The position numbers were made by a program, and so were the translations under genes. The notes beneath the pieces are model-generated. The model was given only the letters and a program-made list of their open reading frames with translations, was not told the origin of the DNA and searched no databases. From NCBI RefSeq assembly GCF_007827275.1, contig NZ_VISE01000001.1:2418001-2482000 (forward strand): a stretch of DNA of 64,000 nucleotides. Direction: 5' to 3'. Of this stretch, positions 15,324 to 30,567 are shown in pieces (positions within the stretch are counted from its first letter, which is position 1; every line of letters begins with the position of its first letter). This DNA is from Gillisia sp. Hel_I_86 (GTDB lineage Bacteria; Bacteroidota; Bacteroidia; Flavobacteriales; Flavobacteriaceae).

Positions 15324-15476
15324 TTTCGGGTTTTCAAAAATAATTTTATCCCTATAATTATCTTAACACACTTGGTAGGCTTTCATTGAAGTTTGTGATT
15401 TTAAAGATAGCACTTGGAATTGCGCAAACTAAGTGTATCTTTACAAGATATTTAAGTTCTTATTTATTTTTAAAAC

Positions 15477-15577
15477 GTTATCAAGAAAGGTGGAGGGATA
15501 AGACCCTATGAAACCTTGGCAACCCTCCTTTTGGAGAAGGTGCTACATTCTACCACGCTCAGGCGTGGATAGATAAC
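15477..15577 (+). ncRNA. SAM riboswitch (S-box type) upstream of metH
   Basis: The layout matches the S-box aptamer: P1 arms GTTATC (15477-15482) and GATAAC (15572-15577), the conserved AGAAAGGTGGAGGGA start, ATGAAACCTTGGCAACC in the centre and GGTGCTACATTCTACC in P3. The hairpin ACCACGCTCAGGCGTGG precedes the P1 closing arm. It lies 50 bases upstream of the split metH operon, so high SAM should lower methionine synthesis. No strong terminator follows, so translational control is possible. CCTTTCTT (15587-15594) is perfectly complementary to AAGAAAGG (15483-15490) in the aptamer 5' side and may form the alternative fold. Confidence 0.9.
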
Positions 15578-15626
15578 AAAAAGAATCCTTTCTTCCTTCT
15601 TTTTTGATACATATATACTTTATAAA

Positions 15627-16648: not shown

Positions 16649-19336
16649 ATGTTAGAATTTAGAGCATTAAAACTTTCGGGTTTAGAGCCGCTTGTTATTA
16701 CTCCAGAAAGCAATTTCGTGAATGTTGGCGAGCGTACGAACATGTCTGGTTCCAAAAAATTCCTCCGATTAATAAAGGAGGAAAAATATGAAGAAGCCAT
16801 TGGCATTGCGAGAGAACAAGTGGATGAAGGAGCGCAGATCATAGATGTAAACATGGACGATGGCATGGTAGATGGCAAAGCAGCTATGGTTAAGTTCCTG
16901 AACTTGATCGTTGCAGAACCCGATATTGCCAGGGTGCCAATAATGATAGATAGTTCCAAATGGGAGATCATAGAAGCCGGGTTACGAGTTGTTCAGGGGA
17001 AATGTGTGGTAAATTCCATTAGCTTAAAAGAAGGGGAAGAAGTATTCATCGATCAGGCAAAAAAAGTAAAACGATACGGTGCCGCCGTAATAATTATGGC
17101 TTTTGATGAATTGGGCCAAGCCGATACATTGGATCGAAGAATAGAAATCGCAAAGCGGTCCTATAACATACTTACCCAAAAGGTAGGTCTCGCACCAGAA
17201 GATATCATTTTCGATCTCAATATATTTCCGGTGGCTACAGGAATGGACGAACACCGAAGAAATGCGATAGATTTTATCGAGGCAACACGTTGGGTAAAAT
17301 CGAATCTACCTCATGCCAGTATTAGTGGAGGTGTGAGCAATGTGTCTTTTTCCTTTAGAGGGAATAATCCTGTGAGGGAAGCAATGCATTCGGTTTTCTT
17401 ATACCACGCCATAAAGGCCGGGATGAATATTGGAATAGTTAACCCGGCAATGTTAGAGGTGTACGATAATATTCCGAAAGATCTCTTAGAGCATGTGGAA
17501 GATGTTATTCTAGATAGAAGGGATGATGCAACAGATCGGCTTTTAACTTTTGCTGAAACGGTTACCGGCTCTGTTCGCGAGAACAAGATAGATCTCTCAT
17601 GGAGGGAAAAACCTTTGCAGGAAAGAATTACACACGCATTGGTTAGAGGTGTGGATGCATATATTTTAGAGGATGTGGAAATTGCCCGATTAGCATCTTC
17701 CAGACCCATTGAGGTGATTGAAGGTTTTTTAATGACCGGAATGAATGTGGTGGGAGATCTTTTTGGAAGTGGGAAAATGTTCTTGCCTCAAGTGGTGAAA
17801 TCGGCTAGGGTCATGAAAAAAGCGGTAGCTTATTTGCTGCCATTTATAGAAGCAGCTAAAGATGGCTCTACAGGAAAAGGTGCAAAAGGCAGGATCTTAA
17901 TGGCGACCGTTAAGGGAGATGTGCACGATATAGGGAAGAATATTGTAGGTGTAGTGCTGGGCTGCAATAATTACGAAATCATAGATCTAGGTGTCATGGT
18001 GGCTCCGGAAAAGATCATTGAGATAGCAAAACTGGAAAATGTGGATGCCATTGGCCTAAGCGGACTTATAACGCCTTCTTTAGATGAAATGGTGTATTTG
18101 GCCAAGGAAATGCAACGTCAAAATTTTACGGTTCCCTTATTAATTGGCGGTGCTACTACTTCAAAAGCGCATACTGCTGTGAAGATAGATCCTCATTACA
18201 CCAATGCAGTGATCCATGTGAATGATGCCTCCCGCGCAGTAAATGTGGTAAATGATCTTCTGAAAAAAGAAACTTCGGAACAATATTTTAAAGATATCAA
18301 AACAAATTATGAAGTTTTCAGAACCAATTTTCAGAAGCGTAGTAAAGTGAAGGATTTTCTTCCGCTAGAACTGGCACGCGAAAATAAATTCCAGATCAAT
18401 TGGAAAACTTCGGAAATTGTTAAGCCCAATAAACTGGGAGTTCAGGTAATTGAAGATTTGGAGCTTGAAAAATTGGTGCCTTTTTTGGATTGGACGCCAT
18501 TCTTCAGAAGTTGGGAGCTGCATGGTAAATACCCTGCGATTTTAACCGATGAGGTTGTGGGGGAACAAGCGTCAATTTTATTTAATGAAGCACAGCAACT
18601 TCTAAAGAAGATCCTAAATGAGAAATTACTGAAGGCGAAAGCGGTGTTTGGATTATTTCCGGCAAATTCAGTTGAAGACGATGATATAGAGATAACCATT
18701 TCTGAAGGGAATGAAGAAAAAAAGAAGGTTTTTCGCACTTTGAGGCAACAACTCAAAAAGTATGAAGGCAAGCCAAATTTTGCTTTGGCAGATTTTATCG
18801 CGCCCAAGGATTCTGGTATTCAGGATTATATTGGCTGTTTTTGTGTGAGTACAGGTTTTGGGACCCAAGAACTTGCTTCCAAATTTGAAGCCGATCTGGA
18901 TGATTACAATGCGATCATGGTAAAAGCTCTGGCCGATAGATTGGCCGAAGCCTTTGCAGAGTATCTTCATAAAAAGGTACGAACCGAAGATTGGGGATAT
19001 GCGGCCAAAGAAGAACTTTCCAATGAAGATCTTATCAAAGAAAGCTACAAAGGGATTCGTCCTGCTCCCGGATATCCAGCCTGTCCAGATCATTTAGAAA
19101 AAATCACTATTTGGGACGTTCTGAAGGTTGAAGAAAACATAGGCGTTAAACTCACGGATAGTTTGGCTATGTGGCCAGCAGCCAGTGTGAGTGGCTATTA
19201 CTTTGGGAATTCTGAAGCTAAATACTTCGGACTTGGAAAGATAAAATTAGATCAGGTGCAGGATTTTGCAAAACGAAAAAAAATTCCTGTAGAAAAAGCA
19301 GAGAAATGGTTGAATCCTTCAATTTCAGATCAATAA
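16649..19336 (+). CDS. metH: Methionine synthase, folate-cobalamin-activation module (split MetH part 2)
   Basis: This 895-residue protein holds the remaining MetH domains in order: pterin/methyltetrahydrofolate binding (about 20-300, [10 protein letters not shown]), the cobalamin cap and Rossmann domain with the axial ligand motif GDVHDIGKN (His426), and the C-terminal SAM-dependent reactivation domain ([12 protein letters not shown] near 810). It transfers the methyl group from methyl-folate through cobalamin to homocysteine held by part 1. The split point between homocysteine and folate domains recurs in Bacteroidota. It is followed by metF 4 bases later. Confidence 0.94.
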
Positions 19337-19340
19337 ATAG

Positions 19341-20297
19341 ATGAAAATAACAGAACATATTACTGCCGCTAAAGGCAAAACACTTTTTTCTTTTGAAATA
19401 TTACCGCCCCTAAAAGGGCAGAACATCCAATCTATTTTTGATGGAATAGATCCCTTGATGGAGTTCAACCCTCCGTTTATAGATGTGACCTATCATAGGG
19501 AAGAATATGTGTATATAGAGCAACCCAACGGATTTTTAGAAAAAAAAGTGGTTAGAAAAAGGCCAGGAACGGTGGGTATTTGTGCCGCAATTCAGAACAA
19601 ATACGGAATAGATGCGGTGCCGCATATCCTTTGTGGAGGATTTACCAAGGAAGATACCGAGAACTTCCTAATAGATCTTGATTTTTTGGGCATTAACAAC
19701 GTCATGGCACTTCGCGGGGATGCCGTGAAAAGCGAAACCTATTTTAAACCGGAGCCAAATGGCAATTGTTTCGCATCAGATCTGGTTTCTCAAATCCAAG
19801 AAATGAACCAAGGGCAATATCTGGATACTCCTTTGGAAAAAAACCATACCACTGATTTTTGCGTAGGTGTTGCTGGATACCCTGAGAAGCATATGGAAGC
19901 ACCAAGTTTGGATAACGACATAGAAAGGTTGAAAACAAAAGTTGCTGCCGGAGCAGAATATGTGGTTACCCAAATGTTTTACGATAATTCAAAATTCTTT
20001 GAGTTTGTGGCAAAATGTAGAAAAAGTGGCATTACCGTCCCAATAATTCCAGGGCTTAAACCCCTTGCAACCAAAAGGCAACTTACCAATATTCCACATA
20101 GGTTTCATGTGGATTTGCCTGAAGAACTTATAAAGGCAGTTAATAATTGCAAGACCGATTTGGAGGTTCGGGAAGTAGGTGTAGAATGGTGCACCGCTCA
20201 AAGCAAAGAACTAATAAGTTCTGGTGTAGATGTGCTGCATTATTATTCTATGGGGAAAAGCACAAATATTCATAAAATCGCTTCTTCGGTTTTTTAA
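19341..20297 (+). CDS. metF: Methylenetetrahydrofolate reductase
   Basis: This 318-residue FAD enzyme supplies methyl-tetrahydrofolate to MetH. It has the TIM-barrel start FSFEILPPLKG, VTYHREE, the MALRGD block and GVAGYPEKH, then QMFYDNSKFFEF and IPIIPGLKP. It is the last gene of the riboswitch-controlled metH-metH-metF unit. Confidence 0.94.
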   Translation: MKITEHITAAKGKTLFSFEILPPLKGQNIQSIFDGIDPLMEFNPPFIDVTYHREEYVYIEQPNGFLEKKVVRKRPGTVGICAAIQNKYGIDAVPHILCGGFTKEDTENFLIDLDFLGINNVMALRGDAVKSETYFKPEPNGNCFASDLVSQIQEMNQGQYLDTPLEKNHTTDFCVGVAGYPEKHMEAPSLDNDIERLKTKVAAGAEYVVTQMFYDNSKFFEFVAKCRKSGITVPIIPGLKPLATKRQLTNIPHRFHVDLPEELIKAVNNCKTDLEVREVGVEWCTAQSKELISSGVDVLHYYSMGKSTNIHKIASSVF

Positions 20298-23067: not shown

Positions 23068-23200
23068 AGCAAAGCTTTTTTCAAAAGTATGGATAAATTT
23101 ATTTTAAAAGGGTTCTCACTAAAACGTTATCGTGAAAAAAATATAAAAAATTATAGGTCATATTAAATTAAATACTACATTAGCGGTAGTTAAAACAACA

Positions 23201-23278
23201 ATGAAGAATATAATTACCTGGACTGCATTCTATTATTTTTATTTCTATTATGGAGATAAGATCGGGAGCGTCATGTAA
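23201..23278 (+). CDS. Phe/Tyr leader peptide of the aromatic amino acid operon
   Basis: This 25-codon ORF has a run of eight aromatic codons FYYFYFYY (codons 10-17) preceded by a Trp codon. It lies between gldA and pheA and is followed 20 bases later by a strong terminator. Codons 21-24 (ATCGGGAGCGTC, 23261-23272) can pair with the terminator 5' arm GAGGTCCTGAT, giving an antiterminator. Ribosomes stalled on Phe/Tyr codons would leave this segment free (genes on); ribosomes reaching the stop would cover it (genes off). This is classic translation-coupled attenuation. A weak TACATTAG -7 box is at 23176. Confidence 0.88.
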   Translation: MKNIITWTAFYYFYFYYGDKIGSVM

Positions 23279-23297
23279 TTAAATTTATAAATTATAT

Positions 23298-23339
23298 AAA
23301 GAGGTCCTGATTTCATCTAAATCAGGACCTCTTTTTTTT
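23298..23339 (+). terminator. Attenuator terminator upstream of pheA
   Basis: The perfect stem GAGGTCCTGATTT / AAATCAGGACCTC has a 5-base loop and eight T. The pheA start is 14 bases further on, so this terminator can only serve as a conditional stop for the aromatic operon. Confidence 0.92.
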
Positions 23340-23352
23340 GAAAAATTTTAAA

Positions 23353-24177
23353 ATGGAAAAAATAATAGGAATTCAAGGGGTTCAAGGCTCTTTTCATCAT
23401 TTGGTTGCCCAAGAATATTTTGGAACAAACGTGGAGGTGCTGGAATGTATGTCTTTTCATGAGTTAGTGAATTCCCTTGTTGCCGGAGAATCTCGGGAAA
23501 TAGTGATGGCTATAGAGAATTCTATCGTTGGTTCCATATTACCAAATTATGCGCTTATTGATGAGCATGACCTGAAGGTGGTAGGTGAACATTATATTCC
23601 TATTAATATGAATTTAATGGCATTGCCGGGACAAGATATTTCTGAGATCAAAAAGGTGTATTCGCATCCTATGGCTCTGCTTCAGTGCAAAGAATTTTTT
23701 AAAAAACATCCACATATAAAATTGATAGAGGATACTGATACCGCTGAAGTAGCCAGAAGGATTTCAGAAAAACAATCTAAGGGAATTGGAGCTGTGGCGA
23801 GTACAATGGCAGCCGAAATATTTGGATTGGAAATTCTTGCTGAAGGTATTCACACTAAAAAAAGCAATGCTACCAGATTCTTGATTGTAAGCACCACAAA
23901 AAAAGAACCTAATGGAATAAAGATAGATAAGGCTTCCTTGAAATTTGAATTGGAAAGCCGAAGAGGAAGCCTGGTATCTGTCTTGAATATTATCCGGGAC
24001 TATAATTTGGACATGACTAAAATACAGTCCATGCCAATAATTGAAACCCCTTGGAAATATTCATTTTTCGTGGATGTGATTTTCGAGGATTACTCAGAAT
24101 TCCAAAAAGCCATGGAAATCATGGAAGTGATGACAGAACATCTAAAGATTTTAGGCACCTACAAAAATAATTTATAA
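23353..24177 (+). CDS. pheA: Prephenate dehydratase
   Basis: This 274-residue monofunctional enzyme makes phenylpyruvate from prephenate. The catalytic domain (1-185) includes IENSIVGSILPNY and the SNATRFLIV (TRF) motif; the C-terminal ACT domain (about 195-270) has the ESRRGSLVSVLNI effector-site pattern (usually ESRP), so Phe feedback is likely. No chorismate mutase is fused; that activity is in the gene at 26192. I choose ATG 23353. Its stop overlaps the next start by one base. Confidence 0.92.
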   Translation: MEKIIGIQGVQGSFHHLVAQEYFGTNVEVLECMSFHELVNSLVAGESREIVMAIENSIVGSILPNYALIDEHDLKVVGEHYIPINMNLMALPGQDISEIKKVYSHPMALLQCKEFFKKHPHIKLIEDTDTAEVARRISEKQSKGIGAVASTMAAEIFGLEILAEGIHTKKSNATRFLIVSTTKKEPNGIKIDKASLKFELESRRGSLVSVLNIIRDYNLDMTKIQSMPIIETPWKYSFFVDVIFEDYSEFQKAMEIMEVMTEHLKILGTYKNNL

Positions 24178-25319
24178 TGATCCAAGCAGAACGATTGAAC
24201 GAGGTAAAGGAATACTATTTTTCTTCAAAATTGCGGGAAGTAAGGGCGTTGGAGGCCTCTGGGAAACCAATTATCAACTTGGGCATAGGAAGCCCGGATC
24301 TTCCTCCACCCGTAGAAGTGATAAAAGGTTTAAATGATGCCTTAGCAAATACGGCAGCGCATCAATACCAGCCTTATAAGGGAACTACAGATTTTAGAAA
24401 TGCGATAAAAGAATTTTATAGTGCCCACTACTCGGTTGGTCTTGATGCAGAAAAAGAAATTCTTCCCCTAATGGGGAGCAAAGAAGGGATTTTACATATT
24501 TCTATGGCTTTTCTTAACGAAGGCGATGAGGTTTTAATTCCAAATCCTGGATATCCCACTTATTTTTCGGTTACCAAACTAGTTGGTGCAGAACCTGTTT
24601 TTTATGATCTGAATGGACAAGGCAATTGGTTGCCCGATTTGGAGAGTTTAGCAAAGAAAGATCTTAGTAAGGTAAAATTGATGTGGGTGAACTATCCCCA
24701 TATGCCAACCGGGGCTTCGGCAACAAAAAAGGTATTTCAGGATCTGGTAGCATTTGCAAAAAAGTATCATATCCTCATCGTAAACGATAATCCATATAGC
24801 TTCATTCTTAACGATCACCCTATTAGTATTTTGGAAGCAGAAGGAGCTAAGGAGGTAGCACTGGAATTAAATTCGCTTAGCAAAAGTTTTAACATGGCCG
24901 GATGGCGAATAGGAATGCTATGTGGAAATGAGGATAATTTAAATTCCGTTTTAAAAGTGAAATCCAATATGGATAGCGGCATGTTTTTTCCTTTGCAAGC
25001 GGGAGCAGCCATAGCTTTGCGTTTACCCAAAGAATGGTTTAACGAATTGAATACTATTTATGGAACACGAAAGAAATTGGTATTGGAACTAGCTTCAAAA
25101 TTGAACTGTATTCCGGAAAAGGATCAAACCGGGATGTTTGTATGGGCAAAGGTGCCGTTGGATACCACATCGGAATTATTTGTAGATCGTTTATTGCATA
25201 CCTATGATCTGTTTGCAACTCCTGGTTTCATTTTTGGCGATCAAGGCGAAGGATATATACGCTTCTCCCTTTGTACTACAGAGGAGAAAATTAAGGAAGC
25301 AATTAATAGAATTAAATAA
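24177..25319 (+). CDS. Class I/II aminotransferase, probable aromatic aminotransferase
   Basis: This 380-residue PLP enzyme (fold type I) has the PLP lysine in NSLSKSFNMAGWRIG, and NLGIGSPDLPPP and PGYPTYF earlier. It lies between pheA and tyrA with one-base overlaps on both sides, so the final transamination to Phe and Tyr is the natural role. Aspartate or LL-diaminopimelate aminotransferase activity cannot be ruled out from motifs. Confidence 0.85.
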   Translation: MIQAERLNEVKEYYFSSKLREVRALEASGKPIINLGIGSPDLPPPVEVIKGLNDALANTAAHQYQPYKGTTDFRNAIKEFYSAHYSVGLDAEKEILPLMGSKEGILHISMAFLNEGDEVLIPNPGYPTYFSVTKLVGAEPVFYDLNGQGNWLPDLESLAKKDLSKVKLMWVNYPHMPTGASATKKVFQDLVAFAKKYHILIVNDNPYSFILNDHPISILEAEGAKEVALELNSLSKSFNMAGWRIGMLCGNEDNLNSVLKVKSNMDSGMFFPLQAGAAIALRLPKEWFNELNTIYGTRKKLVLELASKLNCIPEKDQTGMFVWAKVPLDTTSELFVDRLLHTYDLFATPGFIFGDQGEGYIRFSLCTTEEKIKEAINRIK

Positions 25320-26167
25320 TGAGAGTACATATTATAGGTGTGGGCCTCATAGGCGGATCGTTCGCTATCGATATTAGAAATGCATTTTCTGGAGTGCAGT
25401 TGGTTGGTGTAGATAATAATCCAGATCATCTTCAACAGGCATTGTCCTTAGGAATCATTGATAAGGTTGAAGAATTAAACGATGTTAGGTCCTCAGACCT
25501 GGTAATTGTGGCGGTGCCCGTAGATGTGAGTATTCCACTTATTAAACAGGTGTTGGATGTCGTAGAAGATCACACCTTGGTGATCGATACCGGATCTACT
25601 AAAGGCAAGCTCTGCGAGGCTTTAAGCACTCATCCAAATCGTCGTAATTTCTTGGCTGCGCATCCCATTTCGGGCACAGAGTTTTCCGGACCACAAGCAG
25701 CAATAAAGGATCTTTACAGGAATAAAACAAATATTATATGTGAAGTAGAAAAAACGGCATTCAAATTACAGGAAAGAGCATTGGCGCTTTTCCAGAAATT
25801 AGGAATGAGAATATGTTACATGGACCCAAAATCCCATGACAGGCATATTGCTTATGTTTCACATTTATCGCATATAAGTTCCTTTATGCTTGGAAAAACA
25901 GTTTTGGAAAAAGAAAAAAACGAACGCAACATATTTGATCTTGCCGGTAGTGGTTTTGCTTCAACTGTAAGATTGGCCAAAAGCTCTCCTGCTATGTGGT
26001 CTCCCATTTTTGAGCAAAACAAAGAAAATGTGGTGGAGATTTTAACCGAATATATTCAGAACCTCAATATGTTTAAAGATTTATTGGAGAACAACGACTT
26101 TGAAGGAGTCTATAATGAAATGGAGAAGACAAACCATATCAAAACCATATTAAACGGAATCAATTAA
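25319..26167 (+). CDS. tyrA: Prephenate dehydrogenase
   Basis: This 282-residue NAD-dependent enzyme converts prephenate to 4-hydroxyphenylpyruvate. It has Rossmann GVGLIGGSFA (7-16), VDTGSTKG, HPISGTEFSGP and DRHIAYVSHLSH, the catalytic His block. It overlaps the aminotransferase by one base and is followed by the DAHP synthase gene 24 bases on. No ACT or mutase domain is fused. Confidence 0.92.
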   Translation: MRVHIIGVGLIGGSFAIDIRNAFSGVQLVGVDNNPDHLQQALSLGIIDKVEELNDVRSSDLVIVAVPVDVSIPLIKQVLDVVEDHTLVIDTGSTKGKLCEALSTHPNRRNFLAAHPISGTEFSGPQAAIKDLYRNKTNIICEVEKTAFKLQERALALFQKLGMRICYMDPKSHDRHIAYVSHLSHISSFMLGKTVLEKEKNERNIFDLAGSGFASTVRLAKSSPAMWSPIFEQNKENVVEILTEYIQNLNMFKDLLENNDFEGVYNEMEKTNHIKTILNGIN

Positions 26168-26191: not shown

Positions 26192-27274
26192 ATGGAAAAC
26201 AAAAAAGAATTAGGAACCTGGTTAAATAAATTCAACTTAGATCATCCTTTGGTGATAGCAGGCCCTTGCAGTGCAGAGACAGAAGACCAGTTGGTGGAGA
26301 TCGCAAAACAATTAAAGGATAGCGATGTTAGCGTTTTGCGAGCAGGACTTTGGAAACCTAGAACCCGCCCGGGGAATTTCGAAGGAGTTGGTGCTTTGGG
26401 CCTCAAATGGATGAAAACTGCCAAAGAAGAAACAGGTTTGTTAACTACTACAGAAGTTGCAAATGCCAATCATGTAGAACTTGCATTGGAAAATGATGTT
26501 GATATTTTATGGATTGGTGCCAGGACCACCGTTTCTCCATTCATCGTTCAAGAAATTGCTGAAGCCTTAAAAGGCACCGATAAAACAGTATTGATAAAAA
26601 ATCCTGTGAACCCAGACCTTTCTTTATGGTTAGGTGCTGTAGAGCGTTTTTATACTGCCGATGTCAAGAATTTAGGAGTGATACACCGTGGATTTTCTAC
26701 CTATGAAAAGACCAAATATAGGAACAATCCGGAATGGCAAATACCTATCGATTTGCAAAATAGGTTTCCGGACCTGCCGCTTATTTTAGATCCTTCGCAT
26801 ATTGCGGGAAGACGTGATATCCTATTTGATCTTTGCCAAACAGCATTGGACCTTAACTATGACGGATTGATGGTAGAAACGCATCATGATCCGGATAATG
26901 CATGGAGCGATGCAGCACAACAAATTACCCCTGCTACTTTAATTCAGTTTATGAAGGATCTTAAAATCAGAAAGGAAATTTCAGAAAGCGAGGAATTTTT
27001 GAACAGTTTGAAGAACCTTAGGGCCAAGATAGATATTGCAGATCATCAATTATTGGAGACGCTGTCAAAAAGAATGAAAATCGCCGATGAGATTGGGAGA
27101 ATTAAAAAATCTCAAAATGTTTCGATCCTTCAAACCACCAGATGGAATGAAATTCTGGGTAAAATGATACTAGAAGGGGAGCAACAAGGATTGAGTGAGG
27201 AATTTGTATTAAAAATGTTCAAGGCCATACACCAGGAATCCATTAATCATCAGAAAAAAGTAATTAGCGAATAA
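26192..27274 (+). CDS. Bifunctional DAHP synthase (type I beta) / chorismate mutase
   Basis: This 360-residue fusion has DAHP synthase in residues 1-260 (AGPCSAET, GLWKPRTRPGNFEG, IKNPVNPDLSLWLGAVERF, HRGFSTYEK, LDPSHIAGRR) and an AroQ-type chorismate mutase at about 265-350 (LRAKIDIADHQLLETLSKRM). It carries out the first step of the shikimate pathway and the chorismate-to-prephenate branch step. The mutase probably also serves as the allosteric sensor for prephenate, as known for similar fusions. It is the last gene of the Phe/Tyr-attenuated operon. Confidence 0.93.
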   Translation: MENKKELGTWLNKFNLDHPLVIAGPCSAETEDQLVEIAKQLKDSDVSVLRAGLWKPRTRPGNFEGVGALGLKWMKTAKEETGLLTTTEVANANHVELALENDVDILWIGARTTVSPFIVQEIAEALKGTDKTVLIKNPVNPDLSLWLGAVERFYTADVKNLGVIHRGFSTYEKTKYRNNPEWQIPIDLQNRFPDLPLILDPSHIAGRRDILFDLCQTALDLNYDGLMVETHHDPDNAWSDAAQQITPATLIQFMKDLKIRKEISESEEFLNSLKNLRAKIDIADHQLLETLSKRMKIADEIGRIKKSQNVSILQTTRWNEILGKMILEGEQQGLSEEFVLKMFKAIHQESINHQKKVISE

Positions 27275-29343: not shown

Positions 29344-30567
29344 ATGAACGCTCAGTTAAGTCATCCCAATTCCAAGCTTTTTGGAGAAATTCAAATTACC
29401 GGTTCCAAAAGTGAATCTAATCGAGCTTTGATTTTGCAAGCTTTGTATCCTTCAATTTCTTTGAGCAACTTATCCAATAGTGATGATACCTCTGTTTTAC
29501 AAGAAGCCTTAAAGGCGAATGGGGGTTCTGTGGATATTCATCATGCGGGAACAGCAATGCGGTTTCTTACAGCATTTTTTTCAACTCAAGAGGGGATGGA
29601 AACAGTGTTAACCGGCAGCCCAAGAATGAAAGAGCGCCCAATTAAGCTATTGGTAGATGCGTTATGTAGGTTAGGTGCAAACATTACCTATACTGAAAAG
29701 GATGGATTTCCACCATTAGGGATTAAGGGGAAAAACCTTGAAAAATCATCTGTAAAAGTTCAAGCAAATATCAGCAGTCAGTATATTTCGGCTTTAATGC
29801 TTATTGCCCCATCGCTTCCGAATGGTTTAGAGATCGAATTGGAAGGGCCAATTACCTCTGTGCCATATATTGAAATGACTTTGGAATTGCTTAGGTATTT
29901 TGGGATTCAGGCTCAATTTGAAGGACAATCGATTAAAATTAAACCTACAAAAAAAGTGAAAGCCAAAACTTTGGCAATAGAATCAGATTGGAGTTCTGCT
30001 TCGTATTTTTTCTCTTTGGCAGCATTAAGCGAAAATGCAGAGTTCACATTAAGCAATTTTCGTGAAACAAGCTTGCAAGGGGATTCTAAAATAGTTTCTA
30101 TTTATAAGGGATTGGGAGTTGATACGTCTTTTAATGAAAACTCTATTTCGCTAAAAAAAGAATCGAGGAAAAAATCTAAAAGTTTACATTTGGATCTTCA
30201 AAACATGCCAGATTTAGCACAAACGATCGCGGTTACTTGTCTAGGTTTGGGGATGGCTTGTGAATTAAAAGGGCTTCATACACTAAAGATCAAGGAAACT
30301 GATAGATTAGTTGCTTTGAAAATCGAATTAGAGAAATTTGGAGCCATCGTAGAAATTACCAACAACAGCTTGTCTCTAGCTCCATGTACTACTTTAGAAA
30401 AAAATATAGAAGTAGAAACTTATAACGATCATAGAATGGCAATGGCTTTTGCCCCTTTAGCGTTAAGAGTTCCGCTTACAATTAAAGATGCCGGAGTGGT
30501 TTCAAAATCGTATCCGGAGTTTTGGGAAGACCTGGAATCCATCGGATTTTCTGTAGGGAAAGTCTAG
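29344..30567 (+). CDS. aroA: 3-phosphoshikimate 1-carboxyvinyltransferase (EPSP synthase)
   Basis: This 407-residue enzyme joins shikimate-3-phosphate and PEP. Motifs are GSKSESNRALIL near the start, HAGTAMRFLTA, RMKERPIKLLVDAL, KETDRLVALK and YNDHRMAMAFAPLAL. It is separate from the aromatic operon at 23 kb and not behind the attenuator. The family has glyphosate-sensitive and -tolerant classes, which I do not assign. Confidence 0.93.
   Translation: MNAQLSHPNSKLFGEIQITGSKSESNRALILQALYPSISLSNLSNSDDTSVLQEALKANGGSVDIHHAGTAMRFLTAFFSTQEGMETVLTGSPRMKERPIKLLVDALCRLGANITYTEKDGFPPLGIKGKNLEKSSVKVQANISSQYISALMLIAPSLPNGLEIELEGPITSVPYIEMTLELLRYFGIQAQFEGQSIKIKPTKKVKAKTLAIESDWSSASYFFSLAALSENAEFTLSNFRETSLQGDSKIVSIYKGLGVDTSFNENSISLKKESRKKSKSLHLDLQNMPDLAQTIAVTCLGLGMACELKGLHTLKIKETDRLVALKIELEKFGAIVEITNNSLSLAPCTTLEKNIEVETYNDHRMAMAFAPLALRVPLTIKDAGVVSKSYPEFWEDLESIGFSVGKV

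Follow-up and report, generated by a model that had tools for sequence, protein, structure and literature searches.

In the pheA (pheL) and trp attenuators of E. coli, the control codons lie in a short ORF, and an antiterminator and a terminator form in a mutually exclusive manner. The trp leader also has a protector (1:2) hairpin, owing to which an untranslated leader still forms the terminator. The pheA leader of Gillisia described here has the control-codon ORF and the predicted exclusive antiterminator and terminator in common with these systems, whereas leaders of the Gillisia type mix Phe, Tyr and often Trp codons.

In 2010, the authors of one paper knew of no such leader shown outside Proteobacteria and Actinobacteria, the ermC leader aside (PMC2965389). 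Among Bacteroidota RNAs, a Bacteroid-trp leader is listed in Table 1 of one survey (PMC2864571) and is given elsewhere as a trp leader conserved in Flavobacterium psychrophilum (PMC6414381); this RNA, RF01692, is likewise a leader-peptide RNA (PMC2864571), but its operon and codons differ from those of the pheA leader. Small ORFs of Bacteroides thetaiotaomicron are described as reminiscent of leader peptides (PMC7366714), and a screen of five bacterial genomes lists uORF candidates before shikimate genes, for which regulation by the uORF is predicted and in which F and Y residues stand out, as they do here (PMC6429828). A study of F. psychrophilum describes structured 5′ elements without Rfam hits upstream of pheA and hisG, which recur in further Flavobacteriaceae genera, and reports strong clues that leader peptides attenuate amino acid operons (PMC9723704). 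That pheA element concerns the same gene and bacterial family as the Gillisia leader, and the main text of the report, as far as available, gives neither a peptide sequence nor a mechanism.

In the papers and passages covered by our literature search, we found no description of a Phe/Tyr/Trp leader of a Bacteroidota pheA operon. An earlier note on this DNA had called experimental accounts of such regulation in Bacteroidota rare. For direct experiments, of which we found none, this agrees with our search, but publications exist on a pheA 5′ element of flavobacteria (PMC9723704) and on the Bacteroid-trp leader (PMC2864571). While ribosome-mediated attenuation as a kind and the flavobacterial pheA 5′ element (PMC9723704) are known already, the extent within the class, the in-frame Trp excess and the lack of an evident protector hairpin in the genus of the window are new.

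Leader, putative promoter and operon

The window is a stretch of 64,000 nucleotides from the 4.25-Mb, single-contig genome of Gillisia sp. Hel_I_86. The elements of the pheA region are, all on the + strand:

23176-23183, + strand, putative -7 promoter box TACATTAG; across 18 aligned sequences, the window among them, the TA..TTAG columns do not vary
23201-23278, + strand, leader peptide ORF MKNIITWTAFYYFYFYYGDKIGSVM, 25 codons
23219-23221, + strand, Trp codon 7 (W7), candidate additional control codon by the in-frame TGG excess of leaders
23228-23251, + strand, control codons 10-17, F Y Y F Y F Y Y, eight consecutive
23259-23267, + strand, segment 2 AGATCGGGA, 5′ half of the predicted antiterminator, within the last leader codons; pairs with 23305-23313 (swap test, masked folding)
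23274-23296, + strand, predicted small helix of TGTAATT (23274-23280) and AATTATA (23290-23296) within the loop of the antiterminator; overlaps the leader stop codon
23298-23313, + strand, segment 3, 5′ arm of the terminator; its part 23305-23313 can also pair with segment 2
23319-23339, + strand, segment 4, 3′ arm of the terminator (23319-23334) and T run (23332-23339); covarying terminator in 18 sequences
23353-24177, + strand, pheA, prephenate dehydratase (PF00800, E 2.2e-57; aligned with relatives)
24177-25319, + strand, class I/II aminotransferase (PF00155)
25319-26167, + strand, tyrA, prephenate dehydrogenase (NF006307 above cut-off, PF02153)
26192-27274, + strand, DAHP synthase fused to chorismate mutase (PF00793 and PF01817)

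The 25-codon ORF with FYYFYFYY codons described by the earlier note is present at 23201-23278. Among the 3118 short ORFs of the window (8-60 aa, one per start codon, nested starts included), a density of eight F/Y per 10 residues is unique to the pheA leader, and seven is reached by one other. At least five F/Y together with a perfect stem of at least 8 bp before a T run is found for three short ORFs of the window, with the longest stem at the pheA leader and 9 bp in the other two. The aromatic run by itself is not rare enough to serve as evidence: seven consecutive TWY codons give 12 matches at 11 sites in the 4.25-Mb genome, compared to 26 for the backward control. The case for a leader rests on its position, the terminator, the operon context and the conservation together.

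As claimed before, a perfect terminator lies upstream of pheA, a 16-bp hairpin of 23298-23313 with 23319-23334 followed by the T run to 23339. The distance to pheA, previously given as 14 bases, is 13 by our count (T run end 23339, pheA ATG 23353). The antiterminator had been proposed as ATCGGGAGCGTC (23261-23272) in the last leader codons; the location of the segment was supported, in contrast to its exact extent. Strong pairing is predicted between AGATCGGGA (23259-23267) and TCCTGATTT (23305-23313), with a small contribution of GCGTC, so that in the folding model the effective antiterminator is AGATCGGGA/TCCTGATTT with the small helix in its loop. In 18 aligned sequences 93.7% of the cells of this loop helix are paired, with little covariation. 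The leader region as a whole folds with a z-score of -4.73, and none of 200 shuffles folded equally well.

The flavobacterial -7 consensus is TAnnTTTG, with the box at -12 to -5 (PMC9723704). Among the 155 leaders of the class-wide comparison below, 128 have TAnnTT[TA]G within 70 nt 5′ of the leader start (21.4 in shuffles), and 92 have the box together with an upstream TTG (1.2 in shuffles). Its most frequent distance to the leader ATG is 16-19 nt. In the window, no -33 TTG element was found between 23110 and 23175. From the putative box, transcription probably starts approximately 13 nt 5′ of the leader ATG, leaving a 5′ UTR of about 13 nt.

The composition of the operon (pheA, tyrA, DAHP synthase), which belongs to the cognate pathway, supports the reading as an attenuator. 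The C-terminal ACT match of pheA is under the Pfam cut-off. All 36 leader-bearing class-level loci and 78 of 80 named loci gave a match to a DAHP synthase gene, the stretches of the other two being shortened, while for aminotransferase and tyrA some class-level loci gave no match, where diverged genes may be missed. On the same strand, aroA (29344-30567, TIGR01356 above cut-off) follows 2 kb 3′ of the operon with four ORFs between, and it may be part of the pheA operon transcript.

Conservation of the leader and complementarity of the predicted antiterminator

A pheA match was obtained in 31 of 40 relatives, 68 of 247 genomes of a class sample and 97 of 110 genomes of a family sample comprising about one genome per genus (109 genera). 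These genome searches and a pattern search yielded 200 loci; removal of the 12 pattern-search loci and of four duplicates left 184 pheA upstream regions, the one of the window included. A leader was defined as an ORF of 8-60 residues with at least five F/Y in 10, at most 320 nt upstream of pheA, and a terminator as a hairpin with an energy of at most -9 kcal/mol that is followed by at least four T, starting -15 to +120 nt from the leader stop. Lack of conservation in relatives was one of the two outcomes that the earlier note had named as refuting its claim, but leader plus terminator are kept in 155 of the 184 loci: 15/16 in the genus, 100/104 in the family, 4/6 in the order and 36/58 in the rest of the class. 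The controls gave 3/184 for reverse complements and 0/368 for two sets of shuffles, compared to 29/184 and 59/368 for an F/Y-rich ORF when no terminator was required. In a second set, the best 80 loci of 576 relatives, partly of the same species and partly overlapping the first set, an F/Y-rich leader was found in 79 under a looser terminator rule. Among the loci examined, this extends classical aromatic attenuation to 100 of 104 in the family and to 36 of 58 in the remainder of the class.

The rule was not satisfied in 29 of the 184 loci. One of these, L005, is cut by a contig end. In six others (L031, L033, L035, L036, L037 and L101) a different ORF ends less than 50 nt from pheA, and L110 joins them if an ORF of 62 codons is counted.

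A strong terminator after an inferred transcript of about 150 nt would yield a short RNA, and the region could accordingly be an independent small RNA, or its hairpin could end upstream transcription, without any regulation of pheA. Since the nearest upstream gene, gldA, is divergent on the minus strand, no same-strand upstream gene is close by whose transcription would have to be terminated. In addition, in-frame aromatic codons recur 5′ of pheA in 155/184 loci, with Trp in 91/155, and we consider both variants very improbable compared to an attenuator.

The stems were expected to co-vary, and among 18 close sequences this was true for the terminator by cells, 33 of which show two-sided change (0/500 shuffles as high); by number of pairs and by pair types, 209/500 and 493/500 shuffles were as high. 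The antiterminator did not follow in these 18 sequences, having two pairs with two-sided change and a score equal to that of shuffles. Covariation of the antiterminator in the close alignment was too weak and was dropped as an argument, and for this reason a class-wide swap test was used. Here, segment 2 was paired with the terminator arm of its own locus or with 60 arms from other loci (n = 153, as 2/155 with a short interval were dropped). The mean duplex energy was -11.49 kcal/mol with the own arm and -7.92 kcal/mol with the arms of other loci. In 145 of 153 loci the own arm surpassed the swap mean, and in eight it was no better. Its rank was less pronounced (median 9 of 60, within the best three in 44/153), as can be expected if many relatives share an arm. 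The longest uninterrupted helix was 7.04 bp with the own and 5.74 bp with swapped arms, and 5.02 bp with the segment read backwards; the own arm gave the longer helix in 138 of 150 loci (5/155 dropped). Pairs that interchange across loci include ATCGGGA/TCCCGAT, CGAGAC/GTCTCG, GAGCGGTC/GACCGCTC and GCCGGG/CCCGGC. Where the duplex reaches -8 or better (140 loci), the median distance from the last aromatic codon to segment 2 is 11 nt, and segment 2 starts before the leader end in 135.

These data also bear on a function of the leader in translation. Leader genes near structural genes have been proposed to help their translation, with a peak at 11-14 bp in Bacteroidetes (PMC4833913), and the ORF could similarly aid pheA by reinitiation, or encode a functional peptide, with the terminator being incidental. 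The leader stop codon is, however, 74 nt 5′ of pheA with the terminator in between, and the C-terminal residues of the leaders vary across loci while their codons follow the terminator arm. We therefore regard reinitiation or a functional peptide as extremely unlikely and retain the attenuator.

Ribosome-dependent folding and proposed mechanism

Folding with the leader covered and uncovered, which the earlier note had put forward as a check, gave the predicted switch in the window and across 150 loci (5/155 dropped). The ribosome was represented by a mask with an assumed footprint from -18 to +11 of the A-site. Mean pairing of segment 3 with the 3′ part of the leader fell from 0.97 for a ribosome on the first aromatic codon and 0.96 for one on the last to 0.16 for one on the stop codon. 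It exceeded 0.5 in 149, 144 and 15 of the 150 loci, respectively, so that in 15 loci segment 3 stays paired even when the stop codon is reached. For the window, with the 3′ end up to 23322, stalls at F10, Y14 and Y17 gave values of 0.74-0.98, and the stop codon gave 0. As soon as segment 4 has emerged (3′ end from 23330 on), equilibrium folding of the window favours the terminator in every scenario tried. Therefore, antitermination must be kinetic, and from the model we infer that the antiterminator would persist past the T run.

We propose that a transcription start about 13 nt before the leader ATG would allow the ribosome to stay close behind RNA polymerase. Scarcity of charged tRNA-Phe or tRNA-Tyr, and perhaps of tRNA-Trp, would make the ribosome stall in the aromatic codons, and the exposed segment 2 could pair with segment 3 as it emerges. 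The 2:3 pairing would delay the terminator beyond the T run, and the operon would be transcribed. A ribosome that reaches the stop codon would instead cover segment 2, and segment 3 would be free to pair with segment 4, ending transcription before pheA. An attenuator of this type comprises a short ORF rich in codons for the product near the 5′ end of the transcript, an intrinsic terminator between leader and first gene, and an alternative antiterminator exposed by stalling. The first is found here relative to the putative start site, the second is present, and the third appears in silico, assuming kinetic persistence.

We have high confidence that the pheA leader controls the aromatic amino acid operon by ribosome-mediated attenuation of transcription. 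The translation-coupled attenuation claimed by the earlier note is supported by conservation, by own-arm complementarity and by the switch upon masked folding. Through the leader and the RNA stop signal, the ribosome very probably detects when aromatic amino acids run short and turns on the operon. The exact elements, i.e. control codons, antiterminator and terminator, are testable and provide a basis for an RNA family.

Tryptophan codons, possible protector hairpin and other leaders

Up to the last control codon, the 155 leaders contain 92 in-frame TGG codons compared to 4.8 expected from the codon-position composition of non-F/Y codons. The other two leader frames contain one and 11. An artefact of RNA structure is an improbable source of the Trp codons, as TGG is abundant in no frame but that of the leader itself. 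The share of W is 4.1% up to the last control codon and 0.6% after it. The 91 leaders with at least one in-frame Trp codon comprise 83/115 in genus and family, 1/4 in the order and 7/36 in the rest of the class. When W is mapped onto a FastTree of 154 pheA proteins, at least 28 changes between presence and absence are required, a raw count with no shuffled baseline. Together these data suggest that sensing of Trp has been selected for, chiefly in Flavobacteriaceae, and the control block of the Gillisia leader may include W7. Due to the low Trp share in the rest of the class, Trp sensing as a class-general feature is disfavoured. As nearly all of the loci compared gave a DAHP synthase match, the operons offer no contrast to set against the Trp codons of their leaders. 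The Trp excess suggests that one leader integrates three amino acids for an operon that includes the shared first step of the pathway.

With no ribosome on the leader, predicted pairing of segment 3 in the window is 0.98, and 0.86-0.92 with the 3′ end up to 23322. All 15 genus loci and 115 of the 150 loci overall exceed 0.5; in 34 of the 150 the pairing is below 0.5 and is restored by a stall (e.g. L018, L023). According to these models, a strong 1:2 protector hairpin as in E. coli is not predicted and thus not evident in the genus of the window, but may be present in the 34 loci, and lineages may differ in this respect. If an untranslated leader did lead to read-through by default, this would be the opposite of the E. 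coli trp leader. We tentatively put forward, as somewhat less than an even chance, that an attenuator throughout the Bacteroidia reads the three aromatic amino acids in one leader, Trp chiefly in Flavobacteriaceae and through a selected codon, and so controls a pheA-headed operon with the DAHP synthase of the common pathway, and that in the genus of the window, which would lack the protector hairpin, the untranslated leader defaults to read-through.

The same genome contains further candidate leaders. A His-rich leader, MKTIQLHHHHFHYCALAR, starts at 1182 of L201 directly before a hisG frame (~1345) and is likely a histidine attenuator. A Bacteroid-trp leader (RF01692, 59.4 bits, cut-off 49) lies at 2894-3010 of L203 on the minus strand, with the peptide MKNNTVHTWWWNNLRQNVVK and three Trp codons, before a chorismate-binding (trpE-like) gene. 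Both support the reading of the pheA leader as an attenuator. For ilvD of this genome, no clear Ile/Leu/Val leader was found upstream.

A structured 5′ element before a biosynthetic operon would also be compatible with an RNA that binds tRNA or a metabolite (T-box, riboswitch) and thereby replaces the ribosome as the sensor. At the window leader and in the 20 of 184 relatives searched, no Rfam family was found at gathering score, including the T-box models and Bacteroid-trp RF01692, and the leu/phe leader RF01743 reached 16.1 bits at the pheA leader (cut-off 70). Matches obtained with a relaxed E-value were far under the cut-offs and look like chance hairpin matches. The conserved feature is instead an open frame with aromatic codons, and direct sensing by the RNA is hardly credible next to attenuation by the translating ribosome. 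Elsewhere in the window, a SAM riboswitch (RF00162, 85.3 bits) lies at 15475-15579 upstream of likely methionine genes, 16649-19336 and 19341-20297, which we take from their translations to be metH-like and metF-like.
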